From a bacterium (lineage in GTDB: Bacteria > UBP6 > JAFGXH01), in contig JAMOQH010000160.1 in the NCBI GenBank assembly GCA_027064085.1, positions 1-30,348 of the forward strand: a DNA stretch of 30,348 bases, written 5' to 3'. This document shows positions 1 through 24,234 of this stretch, piece by piece. A program made the position numbers and the translations under genes. Under the pieces are notes generated by a model, which was not told the origin of the DNA, did no database searches, and worked only from the letters and a program-made list of their open reading frames with translations. The first letter of the stretch is position 1. Each line of letters opens with the position of its first letter.

Positions 1-1913
1 TGATATCCATTATCACAATTACAAGTTGCTATTCCATTATTGTTTATACAAGTACCATGATTACTACAAGAAATACCATCACATGGGTCAGTAATATCTG
101 GATCACATCCTGTTTGTTCATTATTTACATGATATCCTTCATCACAAAAGCAGTAAGCATTACCGTCTTGAGGGTATATATCACAGTGAGCATTAGGAAC
201 TTGAGAACAGCCAGTTTCAGTTTCCTGCTCTGCTGTACATGAACCCTGCGAATCAGCAATACAGTTAAATCCTTCAGAATGATAATCCACATCACAATTA
301 CAAACAGCATGGCCATTTACCAAACTACAAATACCATGATTACTACAAGAAATACCATCGCAAGAACTAATATTATTGCATTCATCTCTTCTATTTCCTG
401 GAACCCCTACTATATCAAAAGCTCTATTTACCTGTTCTGATTCATTTGAACAATTTCCATATAAATCTTCTGCTGATAAAGAGAGCAATCTTCTTGCATC
501 GCTAAAATCAAAATTTGAATCTCCAGTAAAATGATGTATTTGTGCTTGATAAAAAATTTTAATAGCCTTTTCTAAACCTAATCCCTCTACATCAGGATAT
601 ATATTCTGAAATTCAGCCCTTGGATGATTACCTCCACTTACAAGTAAATAATATGCCAAAGAAATAATTGTTGAATTTATATGAACACCACCTTCATCAT
701 AATCGCCAATATATCTTTGAGAATAATGATCAGGCTTGTATTCATCAGGTCCATCTGCCAGATGAGGATTATTCATATACCTCATTGCAGTTCCATCAGT
801 CATTACATCCTCACCTATTTTCCAAGTATTTTCATCTGGTATAAAATTTGCTGGATTACTAGTTATAGTTCCGCCACTGTTACTCCAAGCCTCAGTTGTT
901 GCACCAAAAATATCACTCATTGCCTCGTTTAAAGCTCCTGATTCTCCATGATAATACAAATTACTTGTTCTATCTGTTACAGCATGTGTTAATTCATGAG
1001 CAGTAACATCTAAACCTTGAGACAAATAATTCATGGTATCTCCGCCATCACCATATACCATTTGGTTATAAGGTTGCCCCATGAAAAAAGCATTATCACC
1101 AATACAACCATAACCATCACCAAAATCAAAAGTCGCGTGAACAGTTGAAATTAATGAAATACCATTATCATCAAAACTATCTCTGTTAAGCATATTTTTA
1201 TAAAACCAATATGTAATACCTGTATTTACATAAGCATCGTTAACAACATTATCACTACCTAAATCATCTCCTTCTCCGAGTTCCATATAACCAGGTAAGT
1301 TATCATAACTATTTTGAGTAGCCAAACATTGATTATTAAAAGTATAAATCTGCCTATTTATTGATTCATAAAGATGAGACTTGAATAAAACTTTTTTGTA
1401 ATTATTTGCATCTAAGTAAAGAACCCCTAAATGATATCCCTTTTTATCAATATATTCAATAAGCGCCTTATATGTTAAAAAGGTATTTCCATTTTTCACT
1501 ACAATTACTTTTTTTATATCACTAAAAAATTTGAGTTTAGTTGTAGAATGCTTAAAGTTTTTAAAAACATTTATGGCACTATTCTTAGCTTCTAGAGTAT
1601 TAATTTTAGGAATATTAAAATTACCAAATAAGAAATATGGTCTTTTAATTTTCATAGAAATAACTATAGTTTGATTTTCAACTAAAATTCCTTTATATGT
1701 GTATGCAAAATGTAAATAACTCATATTATTTGGAGCTTTAGTTGCTTTTTTAATAATAAATTTAATATCTTTTTTATTTTTAACATTATTTAGTAAATAA
1801 TTATTAAAAACATTATCAATATTTTTATTATCCTTTATTTCAGTAAAAAGTTTTCCCTGATTTGCGAATATGCCTAGGGATAGTAACATAAAAATTATAA
1901 TTAATTTACCCAT
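1..1913 (-). CDS. Secreted thermolysin-like (M4) zinc metalloprotease with EGF-like repeats, C-terminus cut by window edge
   Basis: The reading frame is open from ATG at 1913 to the left edge (637 codons, no stop). A signal peptide is clear (MGKLIIIFMLLSLGIFA), and GAGG lies 6 nt before the ATG. Residues about 20-200 look like an FTP/PepSY-type propeptide. The catalytic domain carries HELTH (H306, E307, H310), the third zinc ligand E330 in NEAMSD, and the proton-donor His H411 in GGVHINS. The H306-to-E330 distance of 24 equals that in thermolysin (H142 to E166). From C512 on there are EGF-like modules, two of the form CDGISCSNHG, with a more divergent one between. The expected role is extracellular protein degradation after propeptide removal, with EGF modules for binding or anchoring. 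The M4 call rests on exact motif spacing and is firm; the propeptide limits and the function of the EGF tail are inference. Confidence 0.93.
   Translation of the reverse strand, partial: MGKLIIIFMLLSLGIFANQGKLFTEIKDNKNIDNVFNNYLLNNVKNKKDIKFIIKKATKAPNNMSYLHFAYTYKGILVENQTIVISMKIKRPYFLFGNFNIPKINTLEAKNSAINVFKNFKHSTTKLKFFSDIKKVIVVKNGNTFLTYKALIEYIDKKGYHLGVLYLDANNYKKVLFKSHLYESINRQIYTFNNQCLATQNSYDNLPGYMELGEGDDLGSDNVVNDAYVNTGITYWFYKNMLNRDSFDDNGISLISTVHATFDFGDGYGCIGDNAFFMGQPYNQMVYGDGGDTMNYLSQGLDVTAHELTHAVTDRTSNLYYHGESGALNEAMSDIFGATTEAWSNSGGTITSNPANFIPDENTWKIGEDVMTDGTAMRYMNNPHLADGPDEYKPDHYSQRYIGDYDEGGVHINSTIISLAYYLLVSGGNHPRAEFQNIYPDVEGLGLEKAIKIFYQAQIHHFTGDSNFDFSDARRLLSLSAEDLYGNCSNESEQVNRAFDIVGVPGNRRDECNNISSCDGISCSNHGICSLVNGHAVCNCDVDYHSEGFNCIADSQGSCTAEQETETGCSQVPNAHCDIYPQDGNAYCFCDEGYHVNNEQTGCDPDITDPCDGISCSNHGTCINNNGIATCNCDNGY
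12..359 (-). repeat. Duplicated EGF-module coding sequence, 279-bp offset
   Basis: Bases 53-80 and 332-359 are an exact 28-base direct repeat. The 13-base string at 12-24 recurs at 291-303 with the same 279-base offset (93 codons). Both copies encode the CDGISCSNHG core of an EGF-like module inside the M4 protease. The spacing is a multiple of three, so the frame is kept, consistent with a recent in-frame module duplication. Confidence 0.8.
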
Positions 1914-2105
1914 ATTTAACCTCAAAAAGATAAATAAACAATTAGTCTTACACCAAATATCATAAATTAGCAAGAAAATAAATCCTTTTATTATTCAATC
2001 GCTGTAATTATAAGTAAGTAAATTTCAATTTGAATAATAATTTATAATATGTTATTAATTACAGTATTAATTCCTCAATTTAGAGGTTTTTTTAGAGGTA
2101 TAAAA
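1914..2105. promoter_or_regulatory. Divergent intergenic region with interlocked inverted repeats upstream of queC
   Basis: This region separates the M4 protease (minus) from queC (plus) and must hold both promoters; AT content is too high to place -10/-35 boxes credibly. Two inverted repeats are visible: 11 bp (1988-1998 with 2030-2040) and 9 bp (2002-2010 with 2056-2064). Their arms alternate A-B-A'-B', the order of an H-type pseudoknot. Nearer queC, TTTAGAGGT occurs twice (2079-2087 and 2091-2099). The second copy is the queC ribosome binding site, and CCTC at 2073-2076 could pair with either copy. The known preQ1-I consensus is not recognisable. A leader switch is inference only. Confidence 0.35.
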
Positions 2106-2786
2106 ATGAAAAAAGCAGTAATTTTACTTAGTGGTGGTTTAGACTCAATAACTTGTTTAGCAATTGCAAAACAACAAGGATATGAATGTTATGCAATGAG
2201 TTTTAGATATGGACAACGCCATACTATAGAATTAGATAAAGCTACTGAGATAGCTAAAAAAATGAAAGTAAAGGAGCATATAATTGTTGATATAGATTTA
2301 AGAAAATTTGGTGGCAGTGCTTTAACAGAAGATATTGCTGTTCCTAAACATAAAAAAAATGATAAAGTTGAAGCTAACATTCCAATAACTTATGTTCCTG
2401 CAAGAAATACAATATTTTTATCTTTTGCACTTGGTTGGGCAGAAGTATTAAAAGCCTACAATATATTTATAGGTGTAAATTCTGTTGATTACAGTGGATA
2501 TCCTGATTGCAGACCTGAATATATTCAGGCTTACGAAAAAATGGCTAATCTAGCTACCCGTGAAGGAGTGGAAGGCCGAAAAATAAAAATTGACACTCCT
2601 CTTTTAAAACTCACCAAAGGAGAAATTATCCAAAAAGGTATCTCCCTCGGTGTGGACTATAGTTTAACGATAACCTGCTATGACCCTGTTAACGGAAAAT
2701 CATGTGGTAAATGCGATAGCTGCCTTCTAAGATTAAAAGGTTTCAAGGAAGCAGGAATAAAAGACCCTATTCAATATGTTGATTAA
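2106..2786 (+). CDS. queC: 7-cyano-7-deazaguanine (preQ0) synthase QueC
   Basis: QueC converts 7-carboxy-7-deazaguanine to preQ0 with ATP and ammonia, in the queuosine tRNA-modification pathway; it is cytosolic. The 226-residue product has the PP-loop motif SGGLDS (residues 9-14) and the four zinc-binding cysteines C191, C200, C203 and C206 near the C-terminus ([10 protein letters not shown]), both characteristic of QueC. I chose ATG 2106 over the in-frame ATG 2049 because AGAGG lies 7 nt upstream and [14 protein letters not shown] is the usual family N-terminus; the extra 19 residues would be atypical. The FecCD permease gene begins inside its last codons, suggesting co-transcription. No other queuosine genes are in the window. 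Confidence 0.95.
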
Positions 2787-3753
2787 AACTAAAAATATTA
2801 AATATTCTCTAATAGCTATTACAATTTTCATTATTCTATCCTATTTGGTTATTTTTGCTGGTCAAAAAACAATAAATCCATTTTCCCTAAATGAAAATAA
2901 TATTTTTATAATTAAAAACCTAAGAATTCCGTTTTATATTTCGGCTATTTTAATTGGAATTGTATTTTCCACATCAGGACTAATGATGCAGTTAATATTT
3001 AAAAATAATTTAGCTACTCCATACACACTTGGCATATCATCAGGAAGTGTATTTTTTATATTAATTGGAGTAAAATTAGGCCTAGATTTCAAATTTATAG
3101 GTATCAATAGCTCACTCATATCTTCAATTTTGGGTACTTGGCTAATTTTATTTATTTTACTTAAATTCTTACCTAAAAGAGCTAATATATTTAATACTAC
3201 CCTACTCATTGGAATTGCCTTAAATATATTTTTTAGCTCAGCAATGATGTTAATTCAATATTACTCTAATAGCTCCGAACTTTATCAAATGACTCATTGG
3301 CTTGTAGGCAGTATTGAAATTATTAATATGATAAATTTATTACCAACTCTAATATTTTGGTTAATATTTATTTTTTTTATAATAAAATACGCTCCGGAAA
3401 TAGATTTAATGAGTATAAATACTCAATTAGCATTAGATAGAGGTATAAATGTAAAAAAAATTGGTAAAACTATTATTATATTACAAGCTTTTAGCCTTGG
3501 GGCATTAATTCCATTTACCGGTCCAATTGCTTTTGTAGGATTAATTGTTCCTAATATAATAAGAATATTTATACATTCAGGCATAAAAACTTTAGTTTAT
3601 TATACCATTATAAGCGGAGCAAACTTTATGCTTTTAGCACATTTATTATCTATGAGAGTAAAAAGTGGAGAAATTATTCCTGTTGGTATTATTACCGCAA
3701 TAATAGGAGCACTATTTTTAATTATTTCATTAGTAAGTCAAGTAAAAGAATAA
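2776..3753 (+). CDS. FecCD/BtuC-family ABC transporter permease
   Basis: The product is a 325-residue, highly hydrophobic protein with about nine to ten membrane segments, the usual length for permeases of iron-siderophore, heme or cobalamin importers. Family-typical stretches include [19 protein letters not shown] (residues about 68-86) and [17 protein letters not shown], matching the FecCD/BtuC G-P-I-x-F-x-G-L-x-x-P pattern, with PN where PH is commoner. The gene overlaps queC by 11 bases and has no obvious ribosome binding site of its own, which points to translational coupling. No ATP-binding or substrate-binding partner is adjacent, so the substrate is unknown. Coupling to queC makes a deazaguanine precursor conceivable, but nothing in the sequence proves it. 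Confidence 0.85.
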
Positions 3754-3762
3754 TTTATTTTA

Positions 3763-4452
3763 CTACTTTATAGTTCTTAAAATATTATCAATTTTATTAT
3801 TAGAATCTTTTAACTTAGTAGCAATATCTCTTATTCTAGACTCATTTTCTTTAGCATTATTTGATGTGTCTTCAACACCACTTGAAAATCCTTTTATTCC
3901 TTGCGTTGTATAAATAATCTTATCAGCAATTATTCCGGTTCTATCAGTTACATCATTTATATTAGCTAAAATTTTACCCACAACAGACTTAATATTCGCA
4001 ATTGAATTTTTAGTATTTTCTGCTAGTATTTTGATTTCATTGGCGACCACCGCAAAACCTCTTCCTGCCTCTCCTGCCCTTGCCGATTCTATAGTTGCAT
4101 TTAATGCCAATAATTTGGTTTGGTCTGCAATATCATTAATAATGGTAACAACATCTTCGATTTCTTTTGTATTTAATGATGTGGCTTCTGCTGCTTTTGT
4201 TGCTTCTGCCGAAATAACATTTAAATTATCCATTTCATCTATTATTTTTTCCATTTCTGTTTTAATAACATAAGCAAGTTGTGCCATATCTGATAAATCA
4301 TGAATAGATAAATTAGAATCTTCAATGTTTAAGTTTATTATTTCTTGTAGATTTTTTAAAGAATACTTCAAATTTGCATTTTGATTTTCAATAACAGTTT
4401 TTAATTTTTCATTTTCTTTTTTTAATTTTTCATATTCAAGTTGATAATCCAT
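3763..4452 (-). CDS. Short soluble methyl-accepting chemotaxis protein
   Basis: This 229-residue protein has no membrane segment or signal peptide. Residues 1-45 are a Lys/Glu/Asn-rich probable coiled coil. The rest is the antiparallel signalling hairpin of chemoreceptors, with the conserved tip at residues about 115-145 ([17 protein letters not shown] at 125) that contacts CheA/CheW. HAMP, Cache, PAS and C-terminal CheR/CheB tether motifs are not visible. It probably acts as a cytoplasmic receptor or adaptor feeding a chemotaxis array encoded elsewhere. AGGAG lies 6 nt before the ATG. It is convergent with the FecCD permease gene, 9 bases apart. The family call is secure; the ligand is unknown. 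Confidence 0.9.
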
Positions 4453-4537
4453 AAATTACTCCTAAAATTACTAATTGACTATAATATCGGAATTAATTTA
4501 CAAAAAATAAATCTTTTTTATTTTTTATCTCCATTTG

Positions 4538-4551
4538 CCCACATTCGTGGG
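4538..4551. other. Small GC-rich hairpin between two minus-strand genes
   Basis: CCCAC-ATTC-GTGGG forms a 5-bp stem with a 4-base loop between the metallophosphoesterase and the chemoreceptor gene. A T-rich run (TTTTATTT) follows it on the plus strand only; no T-run follows on the minus strand, where the flanking genes lie. It may be a weak transcription attenuator or a processing site for the minus-strand transcript. The call is uncertain. Confidence 0.35.
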
Positions 4552-4586
4552 TTTTATTTGTTATAATAATGTTTATTTATTGAACT

Positions 4587-5753
4587 TTAAATTAAAGTAA
4601 TATCAGTAATTTCATTCTCTGTTCCTAGCCTCATTGGAGGACCCCAACAACCTGTCCCTTGATTTACATACAATTGAGTATTTCTATATTTAAAATATCC
4701 TTTTAAATACTTTTGCTGTAATTGCACAATATAACCAAAAGGCCATATTTGCCCTCCATGGGTATGCCCTGACAACATTAAATCAACATTGTATTTTGAA
4801 GCATTTTCTACATCAGGTGGCTGATGAGTAAGTAATATTTTAACACTTTCTTGCTTTATATCTTTGAAAGCCTTTTTAAAATCAGGAGCATTTTTTTTAC
4901 CAAAACGGCCTCCCTCACGGTCATTCGTACCAATGACAACTATTTTTTGACCATTTTTTAATATTATTTCTCTGTTTTCATTTTCTAAAACAGTTATTCC
5001 AAATTTTTTAACAGCATCAATCCATTGCTGTGCCCCACTGTAATATTCATGATTTCCTGTAACAAAAAACACACCATATTTTGATTTTAAATCCTTCAAC
5101 GGCGTAATTTCATCATATAAAAAACCAACGCTTCCATCTGCTAAATCACCAGTAATAGCAATCATATCAGGTTTTAACTCATTTACTTGTTTTACTATCC
5201 CTTGTAATGTATGTTTTCTCATTATTTGACCAATATGTATATCTGATATTTGAACAATCTTAAATCTATTAAATCCATCAGGTAAATTTTTTATTTTTAT
5301 TTTAACTTTTTTTACTGTAGCAATATCATAATATTTTTTTATACTTAAAGCCGTTGCTCCAAAAACAACGGTACTTGCTCCTAAAGCGATAGACTTTGAT
5401 ATAAATTCCCGTCTTTGAGGATTATAATCATTTGATTTTTTAAATTTATTAAATGTATAAATAAACAAATAGAGAAAATCAATAAAAAGAAAGCTAAAAA
5501 GATATAACAACATCATTCCTAACCATAAATTACCTATCCATAACAGATAAAATGAAATATTATATGGTATAACCTTAGCCAAACCAAATGAAACAGGAAA
5601 AGAAACACCTAAAAATATAAGTAAAACCGTAAAGAACTTTTTTTTATTTAATCTGGTGTCTTTTATTAATCTTTTCCATAAATAATAATGAACCCCAAAA
5701 ACAGCAATAGCAAATAATCCAAAAAATATCGTAAGGGTAAGCATTCTATTCAT
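4587..5753 (-). CDS. Membrane-anchored calcineurin-like metallophosphoesterase
   Basis: The product is 388 residues. The N-terminal about 105 residues hold three to four membrane segments. A twin-arginine-like RREFISK (114-120) followed by a hydrophobic stretch (121-137) then leads into the catalytic domain. Phosphoesterase metal ligands are complete: D171 and H173 (SDIHIG), D203 (GDLADG), N234/H235 (GNHEYY), H310, and H330/H332 (SGHTHGG). This layout resembles YkuE/YaeI-type enzymes, some of which act on lipid-linked phosphodiesters such as UDP-diacylglucosamine; the substrate here is not known. The catalytic domain likely faces the periplasm, though the topology is not certain. The gene starts 18 bases after the acyl-CoA dehydrogenase stop, so the two are probably co-transcribed; GGAT is the only ribosome-binding-like sequence. 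Confidence 0.88.
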   Translation of the reverse strand: MNRMLTLTIFFGLFAIAVFGVHYYLWKRLIKDTRLNKKKFFTVLLIFLGVSFPVSFGLAKVIPYNISFYLLWIGNLWLGMMLLYLFSFLFIDFLYLFIYTFNKFKKSNDYNPQRREFISKSIALGASTVVFGATALSIKKYYDIATVKKVKIKIKNLPDGFNRFKIVQISDIHIGQIMRKHTLQGIVKQVNELKPDMIAITGDLADGSVGFLYDEITPLKDLKSKYGVFFVTGNHEYYSGAQQWIDAVKKFGITVLENENREIILKNGQKIVVIGTNDREGGRFGKKNAPDFKKAFKDIKQESVKILLTHQPPDVENASKYNVDLMLSGHTHGGQIWPFGYIVQLQQKYLKGYFKYRNTQLYVNQGTGCWGPPMRLGTENEITDITLI

Positions 5754-5771
5754 TAAAATCCATAATATAAA

Positions 5772-6917
5772 TTATTTCAAAACTTCTCTTCCAATTACTA
5801 ATTGCTGAATCTGACTTGTGCCTTCATAAATTGTAGTAACCCTTACATCTCTGTAATATCTTTCTAGATTAAAATCTTCTGTATATCCATATCCACCAAG
5901 CATCTGAATTGCTTTTCCTGCAACCCTATTTGCTGTTTCTGTAGCAAAATATTTTGCCATAGCTGCTTCCTTACTAAATCTTTTAGCCCCGCTTTCTTTT
6001 AAAAATGCAGCCTGCATAATAAGCATTCTAGCAGCTTCAAGCTCTGTTGCACTATCTGCGAGCATCCACTGAATCGCCTGAAATTCAGCTATTTTTCTAC
6101 CAAACTGTTTTCTTTCTTTAACATAAGCAGTTGCATCTTCTAGTGCGGCAAGCCCCAAGCCTAAGCCTTGAGAAGCCACACCAATTCTCCCACCATCAAG
6201 AGCAGTCATTGCTATTTTAAAACCATCTCCCTCTTTACCTAGTAAATTTGATTTATGAACTCTTACATTATCAAAAGACAAAGATACCGTTGATGATGAT
6301 TTTAGTCCCATTTTATTTTCTTCCTTACCGATGGTAAAACCTTCTGTTCCTGGTTTAACAAGTATTGCACTTAAACCCTTAGCTCCTTTTATATCTTTGT
6401 TTGTTCTTGCAAAAACAATAAATATTCCTGCATATCCTCCATTAGTTATCCACGCCTTGTTACCATTAATTACATAATAATCGCCATCGAGCGTAGCTGT
6501 TGTTTTTAAAGACCCCGCATCACTTCCATATTCCGGTTCACTTAATCCAAAAGCACCAGTAACATAAGTCCCATCCATAATCTTAGTAATATGCTCTTTT
6601 TTTTGCTCTTCTGTACCAAAATAATTAATAATTTCTGCTGCCATATTTGTAACCATCATAGTTACAGCCACAGAGGCTGAAACTTTTGCAAGTTCTGTAG
6701 CCGCAAGAGAATAAGCAACTACTCCAGCTTCACTTCCACCATATTCAAAGGGTATATTAACCCCCATAAGCCCCATTTTTGCTAATTCCTTAATATTTTC
6801 AATAGGAAATCTTTTTGTTTTATCTTCTTCAGCTGCTGTTTTAGCCAAAATATCTTTTGCAAATCCAGATGCAACTTTTTTAATTAGTTCTTGTTCTTCT
6901 GTTAATTTAAAATTCAT
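5772..6917 (-). CDS. Short-chain acyl-CoA dehydrogenase (butyryl-CoA dehydrogenase-like)
   Basis: This FAD enzyme oxidises acyl-CoA to trans-2-enoyl-CoA in the cytosol and passes electrons to electron-transfer flavoprotein. At 381 residues it has the standard length. Visible signatures are AFGLSEPEYGSDAGSL (FAD/substrate loop), ITNGGYAGIFIVFART, LGGYGYTEDFNLERYYRDVR and the catalytic base E365 in TIYEGTSQIQ. Its position agrees with Glu367/368 of bacterial short-chain enzymes. AGGGGGT lies a few bases before the ATG. No etfAB, thiolase or crotonase gene is adjacent, so chain-length preference and direction (beta-oxidation or butyrate formation) cannot be decided. The downstream neighbour is the membrane phosphoesterase, with no obvious metabolic link. 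Confidence 0.93.
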   Translation of the reverse strand: MNFKLTEEQELIKKVASGFAKDILAKTAAEEDKTKRFPIENIKELAKMGLMGVNIPFEYGGSEAGVVAYSLAATELAKVSASVAVTMMVTNMAAEIINYFGTEEQKKEHITKIMDGTYVTGAFGLSEPEYGSDAGSLKTTATLDGDYYVINGNKAWITNGGYAGIFIVFARTNKDIKGAKGLSAILVKPGTEGFTIGKEENKMGLKSSSTVSLSFDNVRVHKSNLLGKEGDGFKIAMTALDGGRIGVASQGLGLGLAALEDATAYVKERKQFGRKIAEFQAIQWMLADSATELEAARMLIMQAAFLKESGAKRFSKEAAMAKYFATETANRVAGKAIQMLGGYGYTEDFNLERYYRDVRVTTIYEGTSQIQQLVIGREVLK

Positions 6918-6991
6918 TATACCCCCTAAAAAATAATAATTATTATAAACTATTCTTATGGATAATTACAATAAAAATCAGTATTTAGATA

Positions 6992-8206
6992 TTAATTTGA
7001 AATTTCAAGCTTATCAATAATAAAAATAGATAAAAATACTAATACAGAAACAGCTATAAAAATAAATTTAAAATCTAATACTTTTATTAAAATACCAGAT
7101 ACAATAGGAAAAATCATAACTGTTAAATTCGAGGCCCCTGTTATACCTGTATATAAGGCTCTATTTTCATTATTTGAAATTTCTAATAATATTCCACCTT
7201 TTGCAATCTTTAAGGCAGCAATAGAAACACCAGCTATTATAAATATAGATTGATAAAACATTTCATTATTTGATAATAAAATTGCAATAATAGGTATAGT
7301 TCCACCAATAATAAAAGAAAATTTTAATATAAATTTATAAGATTTTGATATTTTAATAAGAAAAAATGAAGTAATTACAACGCCTATTATTCTAAGAATC
7401 AAAAAATTACCAATATGCTCTTTGGTTAAACCAAAATTTATTTTTGCATACATAATCAAAAAAGGAAGAGTTGAAAAATATAAGCTAGATACATTTAATA
7501 AAATTATATAGTATTTCAAATTTTTATTTTTTTTAATTTCTATAGGAATAGATTTTACTATTTCTAAAAAACTTCTTTTATATTTTGGTTTTATTATTGG
7601 TTCGCTAATTCTTAAAAATCCCCCTGATGCTATAAGCAATAAAACTCCAGCTATTACAAATAAATAAAAGTAATTAATAGGATAATCAAATTTTTTAACT
7701 AAATATCTTACTAAAAAAGATGAAGACAGCATCGCTAGACTTGATATAATTTGCCTTACTGAAAAGAATTTTTTTCTATAATCAGGTAATATGGATTTTC
7801 CAAGTATATCAGTGTATGAAACCCCTGCAAAGGAACCGCTTATTGAAAACACTGAAATTATTACAAAAATTAATACAATAGTAGTTAATGGTGAGATGTT
7901 TTTACTTAAAAAAAACAAAGATGACAATAAAAATAAAGCTCCAACTCTTAAATAAACCCCTAATAATAAAAAAAATTTTTTATTTGTTTTTTTAGATAGA
8001 TAAGACGCAAATAACAATTGAAAAAGCGTTGATGACCCTAGCATTATCGCAGTTAAAAAACCTAAGTGAATGCTATTACCCCCTGCTTGTATCATCATTG
8101 ACGGAATTATAGTATCAACATCCATAAAACTAGAAGCAATAGCTAAAAATGTTGTATGCCATAAAAAAGCTCTATAATTTATTTTAGAAATTTTTTTAGT
8201 TAACAT
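6992..8206 (-). CDS. MFS-type transporter
   Basis: The product is a roughly 404-residue hydrophobic protein with about 12 membrane segments in two halves, and a basic central loop (PIIKPKYKRSFLEIVKSIP). The features fit the major facilitator superfamily: helices run from about residue 20 to the C-terminus, with short charged loops such as SKKTNKK after helix 2. No substrate-specific motif was recognised. The frame extends to a TTG at 8224, which would overlap the preceding small gene by 8 bases. I prefer the ATG at 8206, 10 bases after that gene's stop, because neither start has a good ribosome binding site. Translation is probably coupled to the small upstream gene. Confidence 0.8.
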   Translation of the reverse strand: MLTKKISKINYRAFLWHTTFLAIASSFMDVDTIIPSMMIQAGGNSIHLGFLTAIMLGSSTLFQLLFASYLSKKTNKKFFLLLGVYLRVGALFLLSSLFFLSKNISPLTTIVLIFVIISVFSISGSFAGVSYTDILGKSILPDYRKKFFSVRQIISSLAMLSSSFLVRYLVKKFDYPINYFYLFVIAGVLLLIASGGFLRISEPIIKPKYKRSFLEIVKSIPIEIKKNKNLKYYIILLNVSSLYFSTLPFLIMYAKINFGLTKEHIGNFLILRIIGVVITSFFLIKISKSYKFILKFSFIIGGTIPIIAILLSNNEMFYQSIFIIAGVSIAALKIAKGGILLEISNNENRALYTGITGASNLTVMIFPIVSGILIKVLDFKFIFIAVSVLVFLSIFIIDKLEISN

Positions 8207-8216
8207 TTTATTAGGA

Positions 8217-8438
8217 TTACTCAAAAGGTAATAAATTTTGAAAGTTTAAAGGTTTCATTACAAAGTACTCCTTTCTGTATTTTTTATATAACTTGTTTCT
8301 TTTTTTATGGTCTGGAACAAATTGCTCTAAGACCATTTTTAATTTTTTTTCTTTTATTAATGCTCTAAGACCTACTGTTTTGATGTATTCATCAAGAGAT
8401 ATACCTCTTTCAATATAAAACAATACTTGACCTTTCAA
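8217..8438 (-). CDS. Small basic protein encoded ahead of the MFS transporter, function unknown
   Basis: This is a 73-codon frame starting with TTG at 8438. GAGG lies 5 nt upstream, a better binding site than the transporter behind it has. The product is Lys-rich and soluble, with no signal peptide or membrane segment; the central part (residues about 18-60) is probably helical, with a basic patch DHKKRNKLYKKYRKEY. The stop falls within 11 bases of the transporter start, so the two form a unit. It could be a small regulator or accessory subunit of the transporter, or a DNA/RNA-binding protein. I do not recognise the family. Confidence 0.6.
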   Translation of the reverse strand: MKGQVLFYIERGISLDEYIKTVGLRALIKEKKLKMVLEQFVPDHKKRNKLYKKYRKEYFVMKPLNFQNLLPFE

Positions 8439-9982: not shown

Positions 9983-9983
9983 T

Positions 9984-13917: not shown

Positions 13918-13925
13918 AATACTCT

Positions 13926-14928: not shown

Positions 14929-14931
14929 AAC

Positions 14932-15765: not shown

Positions 15766-15771
15766 AATTGT

Positions 15772-15789: not shown

Positions 15790-15827
15790 TTTATGATATA
15801 TTAATTTGAAAATAAGTTCAAGTAAAA

Positions 15828-18368
15828 TTAACTTTTAGGAAGTCTTACCATAAATATAGCTCCGTTTTCATCTTTATTGTTTAAAGCCCAAACTTCACCT
15901 TTATGTGCTTCTACTATTTTTTGGGAAATAGCTAGCCCTAGTCCTGCACCCTTTATTGAATCTTCCTTTGTACGACTACCTTGTATAAAACTATTAAAAA
16001 TAACATTAATATCTTTTTTATCTATTCCAGGACCTTCATCTTTAATTAAAATAGTAACCAAAGTATCACTTTCATTTATTTTTATAAATATGTTTCCGTT
16101 AGTTGGACTAAATTTTATTGCATTTGATAATATATTTAAAAAAACCTGTTTTAATCTCTCATAATCAAATAATAAATCAACACTCTTTTCATATTCAAAA
16201 TGTATTTTAAGCTTTTTTTCAAAAGTAAAAACTTCTAACTCAGAAATTGATTCATCTATTAATTCAACTAAATTATTATTTTTCATATTATATTCTATTG
16301 TACCGGCCTCAAGTTTTGCAATTCTTAACAAATCTTCAAGTAACTTTAATAAGCGTTTGCCACTTGCATTGATATTATTAAAGTATTTTAATAACTTTTC
16401 TTTACTTAAACTATCAATTCTTTTTATTCCCATTGAAGAATAACTTAATATTCCATTCATTGGTGTTCTAAGTTCATGGGAAATACTTGCAAGAAAGTTT
16501 GTTTTTGAATTACTTGATTCTTCTGCAAGTTCCTTGGCTTTAATTAATTTTTTCTCAATTTCAGTTCTTTTAATTATTTCTATTTTCAAATCATTATTCT
16601 TTTTTTCCAATTCTTTAGTTCTCTCCTTAACCTTCTTTCTTAAATGAACTTGATAATATAACAAACCAATTATCATAAAAACAATAATAAGAATAACTTT
16701 CCAAAATAAAGTATAATCAAACTCTTTATTTATCTTTTTATTAACCCACTTATCATAAATAATATCATGTGTTTTATTAGAAATTTCCTTTAATTTTTTA
16801 TTTAAGATATTAAGCAGAATTTTATCATCTTTTCTAACAGCAATACTTAAATTATATTTAGATTTAAGAAATCCTGCAATTTGTAGTTTATTAAATCCAT
16901 ATTTATTTTTATAATATGATAAAATAGGTAGTGTTGTAATCGTAAAATAACTATCTCCACTTAAAACATCTTCAAAAGAATCTAAATAAGTCTTTGTTTC
17001 TTTTATTTCTATATTTGGATATTTATTTTTCAATTTATGAATTAAACCAGAGCCTCTTTTCCTACACATTTTTTTATCTATTATTGAATCAATATTTTTT
17101 ACTAATTGCTTATCATTTCTAGTAATTATTGCTAAATCATACTTTAAATATGGCAAGGTAAAATTAGCATAAAGTTCTCTTTTTTTAGTTTTGCTTGCAC
17201 TTGGTAAAATATCACATTTTCTTTCTTTTAAAAATTTCTGTGACTCACTCCATGATGAAGTTTCAACAAATTCATATTCAATTTTTAATTTCTCCTGAAT
17301 AATTTTTAGAGTATCTATAGAAATACCTTGAGGTTCGTTATTAGCCATAAATTCTACAGGAATCCAATTAGGATTTATACATATCCTAATAACTTTTTTG
17401 TTTTTAAGATATTCCTGCTCATCATCACTTAAAATAGTTTGTAGTTTATTATCAAAAATAAAATCATCTATAGTTTTTTTAGTTTTTATTTTATAATCCT
17501 TTTTAAATAATTCTAATTGCCTGTTTAAAAAATTAATATCAATTGAACCTATCTCATAAGCATAAGGTAAAATTAATTTTTCTATTTTTCTGGCTTCATT
17601 TTCAAGTACATCATAACTTAAATCCTTTCTATATTTTTTTCTTATAATATTAATAATTTCTTTTTTATGGGAAAAGGCATATTCCCAACCTTTTATACTC
17701 GCTATTTTAAAAGCCTGTGTTCTTTCTGAATGATGTTTGATTTCATTTTTAGAAGTAAATAATTCCAAGAGTAAGTTATAGACCCCATAATCACTTGGAT
17801 CTATAATATTATATTTAACACCTAACTTATCTAGCTTATATGGTTCATCAGAAATAAATGCAGCAATCGCATCTACTCTACCATTTGCAAAATCATTTAC
17901 ACTATAAGTATGCTTTACTAAAATCAGGTTATCTGTATTTACTCCCTGTGAATTAAACATATATTTGAATCTTAAATCGAAATCCTTTTTAGTATCTGTC
18001 ATGATTTTTTTACCAACTAAATCTTTTGGAGACTTAATATTAGGCTTTACTACCAAAACCATTGCAGAACGCTTGAAATAACTTGAAATGAGCTTAATTG
18101 ACTTACCTTGTAAATATGATAATAAAATACTAGAACTATAAACTCCGTAAGTTGCTCTACCCTCTAGAACTTCTTTTTCAATATCAGTACCAAAGTTAAA
18201 TTCCCTGATATCAACATCAAGTCCAACTTCTTTATAAAATCCCTTTTCTTTAGCAGCAATAAATCCAGCTGATTCGAATTGATATTTCCAATGCAATTGT
18301 AGTGAAACTTTTTGTACATTCTTAGAAAAGAGTAAAGTTGTAATTAAAAATAGCATTATGAATTTCAT
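15828..18368 (-). CDS. Sensor histidine kinase with NMT1/THI5-like and SBP_bac_3 periplasmic domains
   Basis: The 846-residue product has: a signal peptide (1-15); an NMT1/THI5-like ligand-binding domain (about 20-310, starting QLHWKYQFESAGFIAAKEKGFY, as in ThiY/THI5 pyrimidine binders); a family-3 solute-binding domain (about 325-545, with RICINPNWIPVEFMANNEPQG and CDILPSASKTKKRELYANFT); one membrane helix (about 555-573); a coiled coil (575-620); a HisKA domain with phospho-acceptor H631 in SHELRTPMNG; and HATPase_c with NILSNAIKFSP, DEGPGID and GAGLGLAIS. No receiver or Hpt domain is present and no response regulator gene is nearby. It probably reports two periplasmic solutes, perhaps a thiamine-type pyrimidine and an amino acid; ligand identity is inference. 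Confidence 0.93.
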   Translation of the reverse strand: MKFIMLFLITTLLFSKNVQKVSLQLHWKYQFESAGFIAAKEKGFYKEVGLDVDIREFNFGTDIEKEVLEGRATYGVYSSSILLSYLQGKSIKLISSYFKRSAMVLVVKPNIKSPKDLVGKKIMTDTKKDFDLRFKYMFNSQGVNTDNLILVKHTYSVNDFANGRVDAIAAFISDEPYKLDKLGVKYNIIDPSDYGVYNLLLELFTSKNEIKHHSERTQAFKIASIKGWEYAFSHKKEIINIIRKKYRKDLSYDVLENEARKIEKLILPYAYEIGSIDINFLNRQLELFKKDYKIKTKKTIDDFIFDNKLQTILSDDEQEYLKNKKVIRICINPNWIPVEFMANNEPQGISIDTLKIIQEKLKIEYEFVETSSWSESQKFLKERKCDILPSASKTKKRELYANFTLPYLKYDLAIITRNDKQLVKNIDSIIDKKMCRKRGSGLIHKLKNKYPNIEIKETKTYLDSFEDVLSGDSYFTITTLPILSYYKNKYGFNKLQIAGFLKSKYNLSIAVRKDDKILLNILNKKLKEISNKTHDIIYDKWVNKKINKEFDYTLFWKVILIIVFMIIGLLYYQVHLRKKVKERTKELEKKNNDLKIEIIKRTEIEKKLIKAKELAEESSNSKTNFLASISHELRTPMNGILSYSSMGIKRIDSLSKEKLLKYFNNINASGKRLLKLLEDLLRIAKLEAGTIEYNMKNNNLVELIDESISELEVFTFEKKLKIHFEYEKSVDLLFDYERLKQVFLNILSNAIKFSPTNGNIFIKINESDTLVTILIKDEGPGIDKKDINVIFNSFIQGSRTKEDSIKGAGLGLAISQKIVEAHKGEVWALNNKDENGAIFMVRLPKS

Positions 18369-18420
18369 TATTGAACTACCATAAAGTGTTATTAATGATA
18401 ATATTTAAATATAAGCCAAG

Positions 18421-19962
18421 TCAATCTTTTAGATTAAATTCTAAAAATCTTGTCATAATATCGCCATATTCATTATAACTTTCTTTTAAGAATATTGCAG
18501 AGGCTCTAAAATATTTATTTTTATACTTAAAAAAATAAAATCTTTTAACATTAATAATTTTTAACTTTTTATCAACAATCATTTCAAATTTTATTAAATT
18601 TACATTAATTTTATTTATTTTAATTACAACATTATCAAAATTAATAATTTTTTTATCTTTAGAGTCAAAATTAATAATCTTTGAATTTATATTTTTAGAA
18701 CTTAAGTAAGTATTTTTATCAATTTCTTCAAAAATAAATCTTGATGAAAATAAATCCTGATAAAAAAAATTACCCCCCTCTTTCGTTTTAATCCAAGCAT
18801 CAGGAATTTTAAATTTAATATTTGAAATATTTATATTTTTGGTAAATTTAATATTTTGAGGATAACTTGTTTTAATATTTTTATATAAAAACACAGTACC
18901 ATAAATTATAATTATTATTGCTAGAGTATCAAATATTTTAAACAAAAATTTATTTTTAATTTTATACAAAATATAAGTTAAAAAGCCACCAGCAATTAAT
19001 CCCCCCATATGAGCATAGTTATCTATATTTTTAATACTTAAGCCAAAAGCAATATTAATAACAATAATAAAAACCACATCTTTTAGTATCTTTTTTCTTA
19101 ATTCGTTATTTATCTCATCTTTTAAAAGCCAAACGATAGAAAATAATGAACCAATAAGAGCAAATATCGCTCCACTTGCACCAACAGAATTTTGTTTAGC
19201 TAGAAAATAACTACTCGCTGATGCTAAAACTCCACCAATAATAAAAATAGATAAATAAAAACTTCTTGTAATCGCAATTCTTTCAATAAACATACCTAAA
19301 TAAAAAAGAGCAAAAGCATTCATCAATAAATGCATCCAATTAGCATGTAAAAATATAGAGGAAAAGAATCTAAAATACTCCCCATGATAAACTAGTTCAT
19401 AAAAATTACCACCATATTTAATTAGATTAGATTGTAATTTTATAGGATTTGAACTATTAGTTATTAAAAACATTGTTATTATTATTAACATTAAAATATA
19501 AGTAATATGAGGAACTAATCTTTTAATTATTACTTTATTGTTTAAGTTATTTGTATTTGAAGAAATCTTAGTTTTTTCAGTATTGTCAGCAATGGTTTTT
19601 AAGAAATATTCAATTATTCCATATTCATATTTAAATGCTCTAAAATCAGCAGTCAAAATAAATAACATCCTAAGTCTTTTTTCTATATCATTCTCATTCT
19701 TACCATTAGAACTTATTATTATATTTAAAATTTTTTTAGCCTCTAACTGGGGGTAAAATAAAAATATGAAATAAATAATTATAGAGATACCAAAAGTAAT
19801 TTGATTAATAGAAATATAATTTATTACAAGTAATAAATTATATGCTAGTATAAAAGATAACTGAAGACCTCTTAATGAAATTAATTTTTTAGGAAATAGT
19901 AAAAATCTATAGGCTATAGATGAAATAAATAAATAAACAGCAATAATTTTAATATCAAGCAT
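18421..19962 (-). CDS. Rhomboid-family intramembrane serine protease
   Basis: The 513-residue product has two to three membrane segments plus a loop (1-150), then the rhomboid core (about 155-335), one more helix (about 345-360) and a soluble C-terminal domain of about 150 residues rich in Lys, Asn and Ile. Catalytic Ser S263 sits in GASGAIFAL and His H318 in NYAHMGGLIAGG; the oxyanion motif HLLMNAFALFYLG lies upstream. It cleaves transmembrane substrates in the inner membrane. It is larger than GlpG because of the N- and C-terminal additions, whose roles I do not recognise. The start overlaps the thioredoxin stop by one base (TAATG), so translation is coupled. It ends in TGA. Confidence 0.92.
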   Translation of the reverse strand: MLDIKIIAVYLFISSIAYRFLLFPKKLISLRGLQLSFILAYNLLLVINYISINQITFGISIIIYFIFLFYPQLEAKKILNIIISSNGKNENDIEKRLRMLFILTADFRAFKYEYGIIEYFLKTIADNTEKTKISSNTNNLNNKVIIKRLVPHITYILMLIIITMFLITNSSNPIKLQSNLIKYGGNFYELVYHGEYFRFFSSIFLHANWMHLLMNAFALFYLGMFIERIAITRSFYLSIFIIGGVLASASSYFLAKQNSVGASGAIFALIGSLFSIVWLLKDEINNELRKKILKDVVFIIVINIAFGLSIKNIDNYAHMGGLIAGGFLTYILYKIKNKFLFKIFDTLAIIIIIYGTVFLYKNIKTSYPQNIKFTKNINISNIKFKIPDAWIKTKEGGNFFYQDLFSSRFIFEEIDKNTYLSSKNINSKIINFDSKDKKIINFDNVVIKINKINVNLIKFEMIVDKKLKIINVKRFYFFKYKNKYFRASAIFLKESYNEYGDIMTRFLEFNLKD

Positions 19963-20285
19963 TATTTTGCATACTTATCAACAAGTTTTAATAGTTTACC
20001 TTTTGACATTGCTCCAACAACTTTTTCTACAATTTCCCCATTTCTAAAAATAATAATAGTCGGTAAAGCTCTAATTTGATATCTTGTTGCGATTTCTTGT
20101 TCTTCGTCAGCATTTAATTTTACAAATTTAACTTTTCCGTCGTATTTTCCTTCAACTTGTTCTAAAACTTTACCTATCATCTTACAAGGCACACACCAAG
20201 TTGCCCAAAAATCAACTAAAACAGGTATTTCTGAATTTATTACATCATTTTCCCATTCATTTGTTATAACATGCTTTATTGTCAT
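19962..20285 (-). CDS. Thioredoxin with CVPC active site
   Basis: This is a 107-residue cytosolic thioredoxin fold: the central motif VDFWATWCVPCK has the redox cysteines C31 and C34, and the cis-Pro loop is RALPTIIIF. Classical thioredoxins have CGPC; Val in place of Gly is a known variant expected to shift redox potential. I chose ATG 20285 because GGAGG lies 4 bases upstream; an in-frame ATG at 20321 would add 12 residues and lacks a site. The gene overlaps the rhomboid gene by one base and follows a metallophosphoesterase gene after about 80 bases. Confidence 0.93.
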   Translation of the reverse strand: MTIKHVITNEWENDVINSEIPVLVDFWATWCVPCKMIGKVLEQVEGKYDGKVKFVKLNADEEQEIATRYQIRALPTIIIFRNGEIVEKVVGAMSKGKLLKLVDKYAK

Positions 20286-20364
20286 ATATCCTCCAATTAA
20301 AAATTCAATAAAACTTTTCACTCAACTTAATATATTCATATACCCAAAAAAATCAATAATTATT

Positions 20365-21075
20365 TTAAATAATTTTAACTAAATTAAAATTAACAATATC
20401 TGCAGAAATCAACTTAAATTCAATTCCTTCTATTTTCTTGTTATAAAATTTTTTATTTTTTATTTTATGTAAATGTCCAAAAACAACAAAATCAATAATA
20501 TCTTTTTGTTCTATTATTCTGTCTAAAAACGGAGTTGATGGAAACTCTGCAGTGAAAGGAGGATAATGCATCATAAAAACAACTTTTTTTATATTTTTAT
20601 ATTCATTTAATAGTTTTCTTATGGATAAAACACATAAATCAAATCGAACAAGCTCTTTATTATACTTTTTTTGAGCATCATCATCTAAATTATCATTAAA
20701 TTCCCAACCTCTAACTCCAGAAATAATATAATCTTCAAACACCATTGCATTATATTGTATAAGCTCAATATCAAAGTTCTTTTCTCTAAAATAATGATTT
20801 ATTTTTTTTAATGATGCCCACCAATAATCATGATTTCCCTTTAATAAAACTTTTTTTCCCGGTAAATTACCAATAAATGATAAATCCTTATCTGCATCAC
20901 TTAATTTTAATGCCCATGATAAATCACCAGGCAATAATACTAAATCATTATCAGTAACGTTCTTAATCCAACTTTCTTTTATAATATCTTCATGATTATT
21001 CCAACCAAACTTATTCATTGATTTCTCAGGATTATTAAAAGAAAGATGTAAGTCAGAAATTGAAAATATTGCCAT
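20365..21075 (-). CDS. Cytosolic calcineurin-like metallophosphoesterase
   Basis: The 236-residue product has no signal or membrane segment. Metal-binding motifs are complete: SDLHLS (D8, H10), PGDLSWAL (D51), KGNHDYWW (N81, H82), MMHYPPF and FGHLHK. It belongs to the predicted phosphohydrolases of the SbcD/YfcE-like type; GDLSW and GNHDYWW suggest the small-phosphohydrolase subgroup. The substrate is unknown. The start is 3 bases after the stop of the upstream lipoprotein gene, so it is in the same operon. Confidence 0.87.
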   Translation of the reverse strand: MAIFSISDLHLSFNNPEKSMNKFGWNNHEDIIKESWIKNVTDNDLVLLPGDLSWALKLSDADKDLSFIGNLPGKKVLLKGNHDYWWASLKKINHYFREKNFDIELIQYNAMVFEDYIISGVRGWEFNDNLDDDAQKKYNKELVRFDLCVLSIRKLLNEYKNIKKVVFMMHYPPFTAEFPSTPFLDRIIEQKDIIDFVVFGHLHKIKNKKFYNKKIEGIEFKLISADIVNFNLVKII

Positions 21076-21078
21076 TAA

Positions 21079-21900
21079 TTATTCAGCTTCTAACCTAATC
21101 AGTTGATTTGGTGAGTTTACAGATGTATTTAAGATTCTTATATTGGCTTTAATCCCTGATTCTCCATTATGACAAACTGATAATCCAGTAATACAATTTC
21201 CATTTCCTGTATAATCCCCAGGTATTTTAGCAGGAACATTTAGTTGCTCTAATTCAAAATACTCTAGCGCAAGCCCATCTCCTTCTAGCTTTAAATCAGA
21301 AATAATCAAAGAATCTTTACCAATATTACAAATATTTATTAAGGTTCTTGTGTCAAGGCCTGGTGTACATTTTTTAACAAGTAAATTTTTTATATTTTCA
21401 GATTTTGTAATATAATCACTTTGTGACTTCATTGCTTCATTTACTTGTAAGTTAGCAACGAAATCTAGGGCAGTAACATTAATTTTCTTAACGCTATCAT
21501 CTCCTTCCATATTAGAATCAACCTCTATTGTAGCTTTTTTAATTCCATCATCTGTAGGTATTAGAATTATTTTTACTTTCACTGCTTCATTCTTTTTTAG
21601 AAGAATTGGATATGTTACTTCATTGTATAAAGTACCTCCAATTTCTTCAATAAAATAATCTAATGGTTCTGCAGATTTATTAAAAAATACATTAGTTACT
21701 TTTAAATCACCCTCTCCTATATTTTTTATTTCTAAATATTGGGGATTTGATCTTTCATTTTTAAATAAATCACTATCTTCAAAAGAAATATTAGTTGGAT
21801 TTAGCTTTATTAAAGGTAACTTACCTGTTCCTGCATCTGAAGAACATGAAATTATAAAATAACTTAAAAACACCATCATAATTACAAAAATCTTTTTCAT
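21079..21900 (-). CDS. Lipoprotein, possibly with ASH/Hydin-like beta-sandwich domain
   Basis: This is a 273-residue lipoprotein: the signal ends in a lipobox around C19 (MKKIFVIMMVFLSYFIISC). Residues about 30-145 read like a 'choice-of-anchor D'/ASH-type immunoglobulin-like sandwich (ISFEDSDLF ... YLEIKNIGEGDLKVTNV ... VKVKIILIPTDDGIKKATIEV). A second, weaker copy may follow (TLINICNIGKDSLIISDLKLEG). The ribosome binding site AGGAG overlaps the TAG stop of the upstream acidic-protein gene. It probably sits in the outer or inner membrane facing the periplasm or outside. The domain call is by pattern; the partner is unknown. Confidence 0.7.
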   Translation of the reverse strand: MKKIFVIMMVFLSYFIISCSSDAGTGKLPLIKLNPTNISFEDSDLFKNERSNPQYLEIKNIGEGDLKVTNVFFNKSAEPLDYFIEEIGGTLYNEVTYPILLKKNEAVKVKIILIPTDDGIKKATIEVDSNMEGDDSVKKINVTALDFVANLQVNEAMKSQSDYITKSENIKNLLVKKCTPGLDTRTLINICNIGKDSLIISDLKLEGDGLALEYFELEQLNVPAKIPGDYTGNGNCITGLSVCHNGESGIKANIRILNTSVNSPNQLIRLEAE

Positions 21901-21908
21901 TTTTTCTC

Positions 21909-22340
21909 CTAATCTAAATCATCATCTAATAAATCATCATCTGATAAATCATCATCTTTTTTATCTTCTTTTTTATTTTCTTTTTTATCTTTAATATCTT
22001 CATTCATTAAATCATCACCAAGCTTTTCATCCTCTTTAATTGAACCAAGCTCCCCAATCTCATCATCTTTACTTTCAACTTTTTCAGATTTTCTTCTTCT
22101 ATTTACCTTATAACTAATTGATTTAGCTTCAGATTTATTTTTTTGTTTTGATTTAAGATATGATAAATAAATTTTCATATCTTTCTCGTATGATTCATTA
22201 TAATAAACAACATCCCCATTTCCTTCCATTGTTCCTTCATACCATGATTCAGTACCATCTATTTCCTCAAGCGGGTCTCTTGCGAAGGAAAAAGTAGAAA
22301 ACATAAACATTAACAAAACTGTTAAAAATAATTTCATCAT
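21909..22340 (-). CDS. Small exported acidic protein, function unknown
   Basis: The product is 143 residues with a signal peptide, MMKLFLTVLLMFMFSTFSFA, cleaved before RDPLEEIDG. I chose ATG 22340 because GGAG lies 6 bases upstream; the earlier ATG at 22352 would overlap that site. Residues about 20-65 are ordinary; from about 75 on the chain is highly charged, with Lys/Glu stretches and an Asp/Leu tail (DDDLSDDDLLDDDLD). Such a tail could bind Ca2+ or be disordered. It is the first gene of the unit leading to the possible ASH-like lipoprotein, phosphoesterase, thioredoxin and rhomboid. I do not recognise the family. Confidence 0.65.
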   Translation of the reverse strand: MMKLFLTVLLMFMFSTFSFARDPLEEIDGTESWYEGTMEGNGDVVYYNESYEKDMKIYLSYLKSKQKNKSEAKSISYKVNRRRKSEKVESKDDEIGELGSIKEDEKLGDDLMNEDIKDKKENKKEDKKDDDLSDDDLLDDDLD

Positions 22341-22461
22341 AAGAAACTCCATAAAACTCTATGTATTATATACAAATAATAAAAAATATTCAACATTTTT
22401 TAAGAATCTGCTAAATAATAAAAAAAAATGGGGTAACGATAGACTTAATTGTAACTCTATT
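22341..22461. promoter_or_regulatory. Intergenic region, likely promoter of the acidic-protein operon
   Basis: About 120 bases of AT-rich DNA lie between the lipase stop and the acidic-protein start, both on the minus strand. A run of nine or so Ts after CCCCA on the minus strand follows the lipase gene, but no stem precedes it, so a terminator is not supported. A promoter for the downstream operon is expected here but cannot be placed. Confidence 0.3.
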
Positions 22462-24234
22462 TTAAAACTCATAAGCTTTTAGCCTTATCATTTCATTTTC
22501 ATAAAATTCTAAATGTCTAAATGCATCATTTTCAGTATCATTATCAAAAATCTGTCCAATTTCATCAAAATGGTCTGCAAAAAGCATTCTTATATGTTCT
22601 CCCCAAATCATTGAGTATGTAGGAACTACCCCATCATTATCTCCATATTTATTTGTTAAAATAACATGACTTGTGGCAAGTAATATATTAACCCTTTCCC
22701 CCTCACTTTCATCTTGACAGGTAAATTGCAATATTCCACATGTTCTTGAAGAATAAGACCAATATTTAACAGTATTTTTATTTGGATACTTAGGATTGAA
22801 AATATTTTCAGCATACTCAGGAGAAAAATCTTGAACGGAGACTAAGTTTTCCCCTGGAATACCAATTCCATGATGCGGAGTCCCTATAGTTGTTAAACTA
22901 GCAACAACATCTGCATAGCCTAATCCTGATATTAAAATTCTAGAATCAAGCCCTCCTTGACTATGTGCAATTAAATTAATTTTTCTAGCTCCAGTTTGTT
23001 CTAAAATCTTGTCTATTTGAGTAGCAAGTTGATTTGCTCTATCTTCTGATACATCTATGGGATTAGTATGAGGAGTAAAAACTAAATATCCCTTTTCTGT
23101 TAAAGTATCTTTTACTCTCCAAAAATAATCAGCTATACCAAAATAATTATCTGTTCCTGCGTATCCATGAACTAAAATCACAGGATATCTAGTTGAATTT
23201 AATTTACAATTTTCTATGCAACTAGCTTTAATTTTATATGAATTTGTAGTAAATACATTGTTTCTTTCTATTAATATTAAATGCTCTCCACTTTGATTAG
23301 ACCTAAAGTTGAAATCAATTTTTCCGTTATTTGACATATTACTTAAAAATAATGGAGTAAAACTAGTTTTACTCAAAAAATGACTATCATATATAAATAC
23401 CTTTGAATTACTAGGTAAATCTCTTAATTCAATATGCCACTTTTGATTTTTAGGAATTACAAAAATTTGCCCTACCTGCTTACAAGATGGCATATCATAA
23501 GTTTTAAATTCATTGGTTAATGTTAAATCTTCATTATAAAATGTATCCCAACAATGATGTTCATTTACACATATATTATTTTTACTACAAAAAGAAGTAT
23601 TTTCTATACACTCACCTAAAACACAATTTTCATTTTCTGCACAATTAACATTTTTACATAAATTAACACATTTTAACTTGTCATTTTCTAAATTTCCATA
23701 ACCCCAATCACAAATGCACTCTGAACTCCCCTCTTTTACTGCACAAGAACCATTTATACAATTAATTCCATAACAAAAATCTTTTTTACAACTCAAACTA
23801 TCTGTATAATAGCCATCATCACAATTACAGGTTGTTTCTCCATCTTTTATTACGCAACTACCCTTACCGCAAGCTATTCCGGCACATAAATTTTCACTTA
23901 CACACCTTAGTCCACTTCTAATAAATCCTTTTTTACACTCACAATATGGTTTATTATCTGTAACTGTACAAAATCCTCCATTGTCACAAGTTATATCTTT
24001 ACAAAAGTCGGTACTTGGCATACATTCTTTAGATTCAGGGTCACAATATTCGCCTTCAGAGCAACCTTTATTTGTTTCACAAGTTGTAAAAACACATTTA
24101 GGATCATTGTGGTCGTAACATTTGGGCTTTTCTGTTGCTATAGAGCAAGAACTGAATGATATACTAAATATTAAATATAATATATTCAATAAATAAATAT
24201 TATTTTTCTTTAATGATTTCAGATAGATTAACAT
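22462..24234 (-). CDS. EGF-decorated lipoprotein triacylglycerol lipase
   Basis: The 590-residue product starts at ATG 24234 (AGAGG 5 bases upstream); the frame extends 21 codons further without a binding site. The signal ends SFSSC with C30 as probable lipid site. Residues about 40-230 are four or more EGF-like Cys modules (CKDITCDNGGFC, CAGIACGKGSC, CYGINCINGSC, CKNVNCAENENC). The C-terminal alpha/beta hydrolase has VILVHGYAG (oxyanion), nucleophile S425 in AHSQGG, D534 in NDGVVP and H555 in DHFDEIGQ. The last two match the NDG/NHLDE pattern of Pseudomonas/Burkholderia family I lipases. Predicted role: surface-bound lipid ester hydrolysis. No lipase foldase gene is present. Confidence 0.85.
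   Translation of the reverse strand: MLIYLKSLKKNNIYLLNILYLIFSISFSSCSIATEKPKCYDHNDPKCVFTTCETNKGCSEGEYCDPESKECMPSTDFCKDITCDNGGFCTVTDNKPYCECKKGFIRSGLRCVSENLCAGIACGKGSCVIKDGETTCNCDDGYYTDSLSCKKDFCYGINCINGSCAVKEGSSECICDWGYGNLENDKLKCVNLCKNVNCAENENCVLGECIENTSFCSKNNICVNEHHCWDTFYNEDLTLTNEFKTYDMPSCKQVGQIFVIPKNQKWHIELRDLPSNSKVFIYDSHFLSKTSFTPLFLSNMSNNGKIDFNFRSNQSGEHLILIERNNVFTTNSYKIKASCIENCKLNSTRYPVILVHGYAGTDNYFGIADYFWRVKDTLTEKGYLVFTPHTNPIDVSEDRANQLATQIDKILEQTGARKINLIAHSQGGLDSRILISGLGYADVVASLTTIGTPHHGIGIPGENLVSVQDFSPEYAENIFNPKYPNKNTVKYWSYSSRTCGILQFTCQDESEGERVNILLATSHVILTNKYGDNDGVVPTYSMIWGEHIRMLFADHFDEIGQIFDNDTENDAFRHLEFYENEMIRLKAYEF

Follow-up and report, generated by a model that had tools for sequence, protein, structure and literature searches.

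Epidermal growth factor (EGF)-like modules recur on exported proteins throughout a bacterial draft genome (G000; 3.65 Mb, 195 contigs, 94.7% complete, 0.6% contamination). The stretch studied here, hereafter the window, is the entire contig C160 of this genome, read on its forward strand (30,348 nucleotides, 27.5% GC). Two enzymes encoded in the window, an M4 protease and a lipoprotein lipase, carry such modules and are typical cases of a surface-display scheme that extends over the whole genome. Probably, the EGF module acts in this scheme as a general-purpose, disulfide-stapled stalk on exported surface proteins. The EGF-bearing features of the window are the following:

3..1973, minus strand: M4 (thermolysin-type) metalloprotease with a Sec signal peptide and a C-terminal EGF run (PF02868, 144 bits; PF01447, 77.5 bits)
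3..362, minus strand: EGF-like, Cys-rich run of the M4 protease (found by regular expression)
22462..24297, minus strand: lipoprotein lipase with three EGF modules, a middle region and a family I-type alpha/beta hydrolase core (PF00561, 44.5 bits)
23653..24003, minus strand: EGF run of the lipase, three modules, beginning 48 residues past the lipobox Cys

Genome-Wide Distribution and Export of EGF-Like Proteins

The first-pass annotation of the window described the protease and the lipase as a set of hydrolases decorated with EGF-like repeats in one neighbourhood. The repeats are real: modules are recovered in both proteins by regular expression, and one lipase module, at 25.6 bits, exceeds the PF00008 cut-off of 21.5. 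The grouping is not a local one: the two genes are separated by about 20 kb of unrelated genes, and a PF00008 search of the genome returned 132 matches (E <= 1) on some 40 contigs, a spread that rules out a local hydrolase cluster. Counted in the stretches fetched around these matches, 58 EGF open reading frames (ORFs), corresponding to 57 genes since the M4 gene of the window is present as two halves, carry 225 modules according to a regular expression for the Cys spacing. This gene number is a lower bound, at least one more EGF-like ORF lying beside a CPBP protease gene on contig C182. In 196 kb of unselected sequence taken from 20 contig starts, no EGF ORF was found.

Export was called by one home-made rule for signal peptides and lipoboxes, applied to EGF and background ORFs alike. 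Among the EGF ORFs with an intact 5' end, 55 of 56 are exported by this rule (48 with a lipobox, 7 with a signal peptide). The last one, L075:1587-3605, was called multi-transmembrane owing to its signal peptide and its tail, and was counted as exported by eye, hence 56/56. Background ORFs from the 20 unselected contig starts are exported in 41 of 148 cases (p = 3.5e-22 against the EGF set) and have a lipobox in 11 of 148, compared with 48 of the 56 EGF ORFs (p = 1.5e-27). The first-pass annotation had proposed surface display and had named cytosolic carriers as the observation that would speak against it; none of the 56 ORFs looks cytosolic, and surface display is thus supported.

The check it suggested, whether the module occurs mainly on exported hydrolases, supports export but not a hydrolase-specific set. 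An enzyme domain (E <= 1e-5) is present on 13 of 57 EGF genes, as counted by Pfam on 50 EGF ORFs plus the window's two and with the unscanned near-identical paralogue L064:9095-12241 included, versus at least 7 of 40 EGF-free lipoproteins, a small sample mostly from the same neighbourhoods whose enzyme figure comes from the best 25 of 41 families (p = 0.62). Enzyme heads on EGF genes comprise M4 and S8 proteases, endonuclease I, phospholipase D, amidohydrolase, alpha-amylase, lipase and formylglycine-generating enzyme (FGE)-sulfatase, with papain-like and endonuclease/phosphatase heads as weaker cases. The non-enzyme heads include RCC1 and SBBP propellers, FG-GAP, LTD, C-type lectin, DUF285, DUF1554, CARDB, carbohydrate-binding and Cys-only regions. 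A tandem pair of near-identical lipoproteins, L064:5867-8986 and L064:9095-12241, combines EGF modules and endonuclease I heads with LTD domains. Eukaryotic contamination is ruled out as the source of the modules by the bacterial lipoboxes and heads and by their occurrence in two sister genomes.

Sequence and Predicted Fold of the Module

An EGF-like domain is held by three disulfides, linking Cys 1-3, 2-4 and 5-6. The modules have the corresponding six-Cys spacing with C-x-C-x2-G-[YF], and one module of the lipase and one on contig C194 pass the curated Pfam cut-off. In modules with the main spacing (n = 66), the pattern used fixes the Cys positions; a Gly and an aromatic residue are almost invariant, and H/N-G and A recur often. 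Runs comprise 1 to 12 modules of mixed subtypes (Notch-like, Ca-binding-like and a short x4-x5-x8 form). Similarity between modules is 0.43 within one ORF versus 0.26 between ORFs (0 of 1000 permutations), as expected from local repeat duplication. In an AlphaFold model of six repeats, two beta hairpins are formed in most of them; the mean local confidence (pLDDT) is 72.5 and the predicted template-modelling score (pTM) is 0.24, a low value that makes the local fold alone trustworthy. A Foldseek search with this model retrieved the EGF arrays of NELL2, Notch and Pfs25, the best match being NELL2 EGF1-6 (E 3.2e-9).

The likeness to the animal arrays of Notch, Delta-like 1, NELL2 and fibrillin thus concerns the six-Cys spacing, the two-hairpin fold and, in some runs, a Notch-like consensus. 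Unlike the animal arrays, the runs follow bacterial lipoboxes and are fused to bacterial heads. The closest likeness is seen in L061:1453-3492, a bacterial lipoprotein with six Notch/Delta-like modules ahead of DUF285 repeats, whose best match in the PDB is Delta-like 1 (6.6e-54), and in L062, which matches NELL2 and Notch-1 at E ~1e-26. Such runs raise the question of whether the arrays are themselves the active part, binding ligands on cells, particles or hosts as in Notch, Delta or NELL. Pfam models of Ca-binding EGF domains match several of the EGF ORFs, and L062, L069, L073 and L076 are nearly EGF only. However, most EGF ORFs have a separate head domain, the two enzymes of the window have a plainer module type whose matches to animal EGFs are weak (about 1e-3 to 1e-4), and the PF05118 Asp/Asn hydroxylase was not found in the genome. 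Such a role in adhesion or recognition is therefore unlikely. EGF modules are usually regarded as an animal invention. That this bacterial lineage holds an animal-like EGF toolkit, in which the Notch/Delta-like arrays would be cell-cell recognition surfaces and not just stalks, is a long shot. Within the literature collection searched, nothing relevant on bacterial EGF was found.

Position of the EGF Runs and the Stalk Interpretation

The position of the run follows the anchor of the protein. The distance from the run to the lipobox (median 47.5 residues) is smaller than that to the C-terminus (median 382) in 35 of the 48 lipoproteins (p = 0.001). The stalk interpretation accounts for two layouts. 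In the first one (about 48 genes), the run comes after the lipobox and is usually nearer the lipid anchor than the other end of the protein. In the second one, represented by a smaller set of secreted M4 and S8 proteases, a C-terminal run precedes by 12-20 residues a tail made of a [SG]C[NSDT]Y motif, a transmembrane segment and basic residues. In the five proteases with C-terminal runs, counting the window M4 gene through its part on contig C194 (see below), the final EGF Cys lies 12-20 residues ahead of the tail Cys. In both layouts, the 1 to 12 modules would form disulfides and hold a variable head (protease, lipase, nuclease, amylase, propeller, lectin or unknown) off the outer membrane, the lipoproteins presumably residing in its outer leaflet. 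The C-terminal tail may be processed by an Mrt-like CPBP protease, with export by the type II secretion system (T2SS).

By analogy, this role resembles the rigid stalk that the Cys-rich repeats in TraA from Myxococcus xanthus were suggested to form (PMC3325183). TraA (PA14 head, TIGR04201 repeats, MYXO-CTERM) has the same general order as the EGF proteases, with a signal peptide, a distal head, a Cys-rich run and a C-terminal Cys-transmembrane-basic tail. The repeats of the latter nevertheless match EGF families, their heads are proteases and their tail fails TIGR03901; moreover, most EGF carriers use an N-terminal lipobox.

Four points weigh against the stalk interpretation. The calls of signal peptides and lipoboxes rest on a home-made rule. 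In 13 of the 48 lipoproteins, the run is not nearer the anchor, for example in the papain-like L077:5481-7313 and in L047:1359-6245. Two non-lipoprotein EGF ORFs, L078:5025-7007 and L063 (cut by a contig end), have no anchor at all. Finally, the conservation of H/N-G before the third Cys and of A before the fourth could also be explained by a binding surface.

These conserved positions, and the presence of the same module on very different exported heads, are what would be expected from the shared docking proposed in the first-pass annotation. On this reading, the module would be a tag for one scaffold or receptor that gathers hydrolases, as in dockerin-cohesin systems. However, copy number varies, subtypes are mixed and, above all, the position of the run is tied to the anchor, so that a stalk is favoured over a docking tag. 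Moreover, most carriers own a lipid anchor, and thus would not need a tag for display. No common partner was found, although without a full partner screen of the genome, and the sole candidate, a myxosortase-like protease together with the T2SS, would have the C-terminal tail as its target rather than the EGF module. No positive evidence for docking emerged, and we consider it quite improbable. That the modules only protect or modulate the enzymes, as inhibitors of their own heads or as spacers that resist proteolysis, without any role in display, is very unlikely: disulfide-rich modules generally resist proteases and C-terminal runs with a tail do occur on proteases, but at least two thirds of the carriers have no recognised enzyme head and the anchor bias would be left unexplained.

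The M4 Protease and the Lipase

The M4 gene probably starts at the ATG at 1913. The assignment to the M4 family agrees with scores above cut-off in PF01447 and PF02868 and with an HExxH motif (HELTH at 998-984) followed by a downstream Glu. The 3' part of the gene is lost to the contig end; a full CDGISCSNHGICS-type module spans 362-261, and a second module, truncated, occupies 83-3 and gives 16.6 bits in PF00008 at 3-86, under the 21.5-bit cut-off. The terminal 85 bases of the window contig, read on the minus strand, are identical to the first 85 bases of contig C194. Because of this exact overlap, the M4 gene very probably continues on C194, where near-identical 126-base-pair EGF repeats, further modules (one of which, C194:645-734, reaches 28.5 bits in PF00008, above the cut-off) and a C-terminal Cys-transmembrane-basic tail follow. 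Two more EGF proteases come next on C194, an S8 enzyme carrying seven modules and another M4 enzyme carrying five, each ending in a tail of the same kind. The three EGF proteases would thus form one cluster that the repeat has broken up in the assembly.

The lipase has a likely ATG at 24234, a lipobox Cys at 24147-24145 and a nucleophile elbow, AHSQGG, at 22968-22951. Its core resembles lipases of known structure (1cvl, 1hqd and 1ys1 at E ~1e-26; 8xy5 at 8.8e-28). This similarity to solved family I lipases, together with the serine nucleophile elbow, points to membership of family I. The catalytic core is like that of the Burkholderia, Chromobacterium and Pseudomonas enzymes; compared with these, the window lipase adds in front a lipobox, the EGF run and an extra middle region.

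C-Terminal Tails and the Myxosortase-Like Protease

Six aligned tails share C-x-Y, itself part of a [SG]C[NSDT]Y motif, followed by a hydrophobic stretch and by basic residues, often Lys, at the end. A model of this tail (E <= 0.01) has 15 matches in the genome and 4 and 7 in two members of the family; in the rest of the phylum, a single weak match (E 0.009) was obtained. In myxobacteria, MYXO-CTERM proteins are sorted by the myxosortases MrtX, MrtC and MrtP (PMC11980579). The tails described here have the tripartite MYXO-CTERM architecture, with an invariant Cys, a transmembrane helix and a basic C-terminus. Their [SG]C[NSDT]Y motif and frequent Lys, however, set them apart, and TIGR03901 (MYXO-CTERM) has no match in G000 or in the sister-genus genome G001, as against 41 and 14 in two other genomes searched alike.

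A candidate processing enzyme is the CPBP protease encoded on contig C182. Its scores, 91-93 bits with Mrt_core (cut-off 100) and 104.5 bits with MrtP (cut-off 250), are below both cut-offs, whereas its homologue in G001 is above the Mrt_core cut-off with 103.7 bits. CPBP homologues occur in 27 of 28 genomes of the phylum, and the EExxxR and HxxxN motifs of Mrt-type proteases are kept in 27 of the 27 examined. As the protease is found phylum-wide and the tail model is narrow, their co-occurrence is no real test of a link. The GspD secretin of type II secretion, a further likeness to the myxosortase system, is present in the genome (508.9 bits, above cut-off). At C182 ~42200-44000 (L168), the Mrt-like CPBP gene adjoins an EGF-like protein and a gene reading as FtsY.

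Metzincins and Other Features of the Window

The first-pass annotation had also related to the EGF repeats a Cys-rich insert of a metzincin encoded next to the lipase:

24391..28200, minus strand: DUF4953-type metzincin lipoprotein (PF16313, 29.5 bits), with HEVGHTMGLRHN at 26241-26206
25645..25770, minus strand: Cys-rich DxDC-type insert of this metzincin, in mid protein and remote from the anchor; no EGF family match
28212..30347, minus strand: second DUF4953-type metzincin, cut by the contig end, without Cys insert (PF16313, 25.3 bits)
18421..19962, minus strand: rhomboid protease (PF01694), a generic rhomboid

The two metzincins form an adjacent pair (24391-30347) in which just one has the insert. 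The spacing of the latter is CxxDxxCxxGxC...C and, with zero matches to EGF families, an EGF nature is ruled out. It is a second, non-EGF Cys module, found among the sampled ORFs only on lipoprotein-like ones: in the sampled stretches, all 11 non-EGF ORFs that carry it have a lipoprotein-like N-terminus. The same module is also found on 19 of the 58 EGF ORFs. In EGF-free lipoproteins (L033-L078, L117-L136), Cys content ranges from poor to very rich. One idea is that Cys-rich stalks extend beyond EGF and mark one lipoprotein class.

Both contig ends cut a gene, the M4 protease at the left and the second metzincin at the right. The genes between the M4 protease and the lipase include queC-like, transporter, acyl-CoA dehydrogenase, ExbB/ExbD-like, sensor kinase, rhomboid protease and thioredoxin-like genes, as named from a reading of their translations, except for the rhomboid, which was identified by Pfam. 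The rhomboid is not supported as a partner, and was rejected as a rhombosortase (44.7 bits in TIGR03902, cut-off 84).

Distribution in Related Genomes and Implications

EGF matches (E <= 1e-4) are found in 21 of 28 genomes of the phylum: G000 has 33 of them, its two family members 26 and 5, and the remaining genomes 0-4. Judging by so small a number of genomes, the phylum is probably not Myxococcota. The closest homologues of the lipase in the sister genus are bare 304-residue proteins without signal or EGF modules. In the same sister genus (G001), L094:220-3378, cut by the end of its locus, is a lipoprotein whose single chain combines an alpha/beta hydrolase region with EGF modules and an FGE-sulfatase-like part, as judged by reading its sequence. 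A search of nine other genomes from the phylum returned no M4 protease. Because of the bare sister lipases, the L094 fusion and the missing M4 proteases, heads and EGF runs seem to have been freely recombined across the lineage.

For the window, the consequence is that the EGF module is common in the genome and is no marker of a special hydrolase locus. The C-terminal tail and its likely processing protease resemble the myxobacterial system, yet fall outside its current models. With at least 57 EGF genes, all testable ones exported and most runs adjacent to the anchor, this organism offers a simple system for probing the function of EGF runs.

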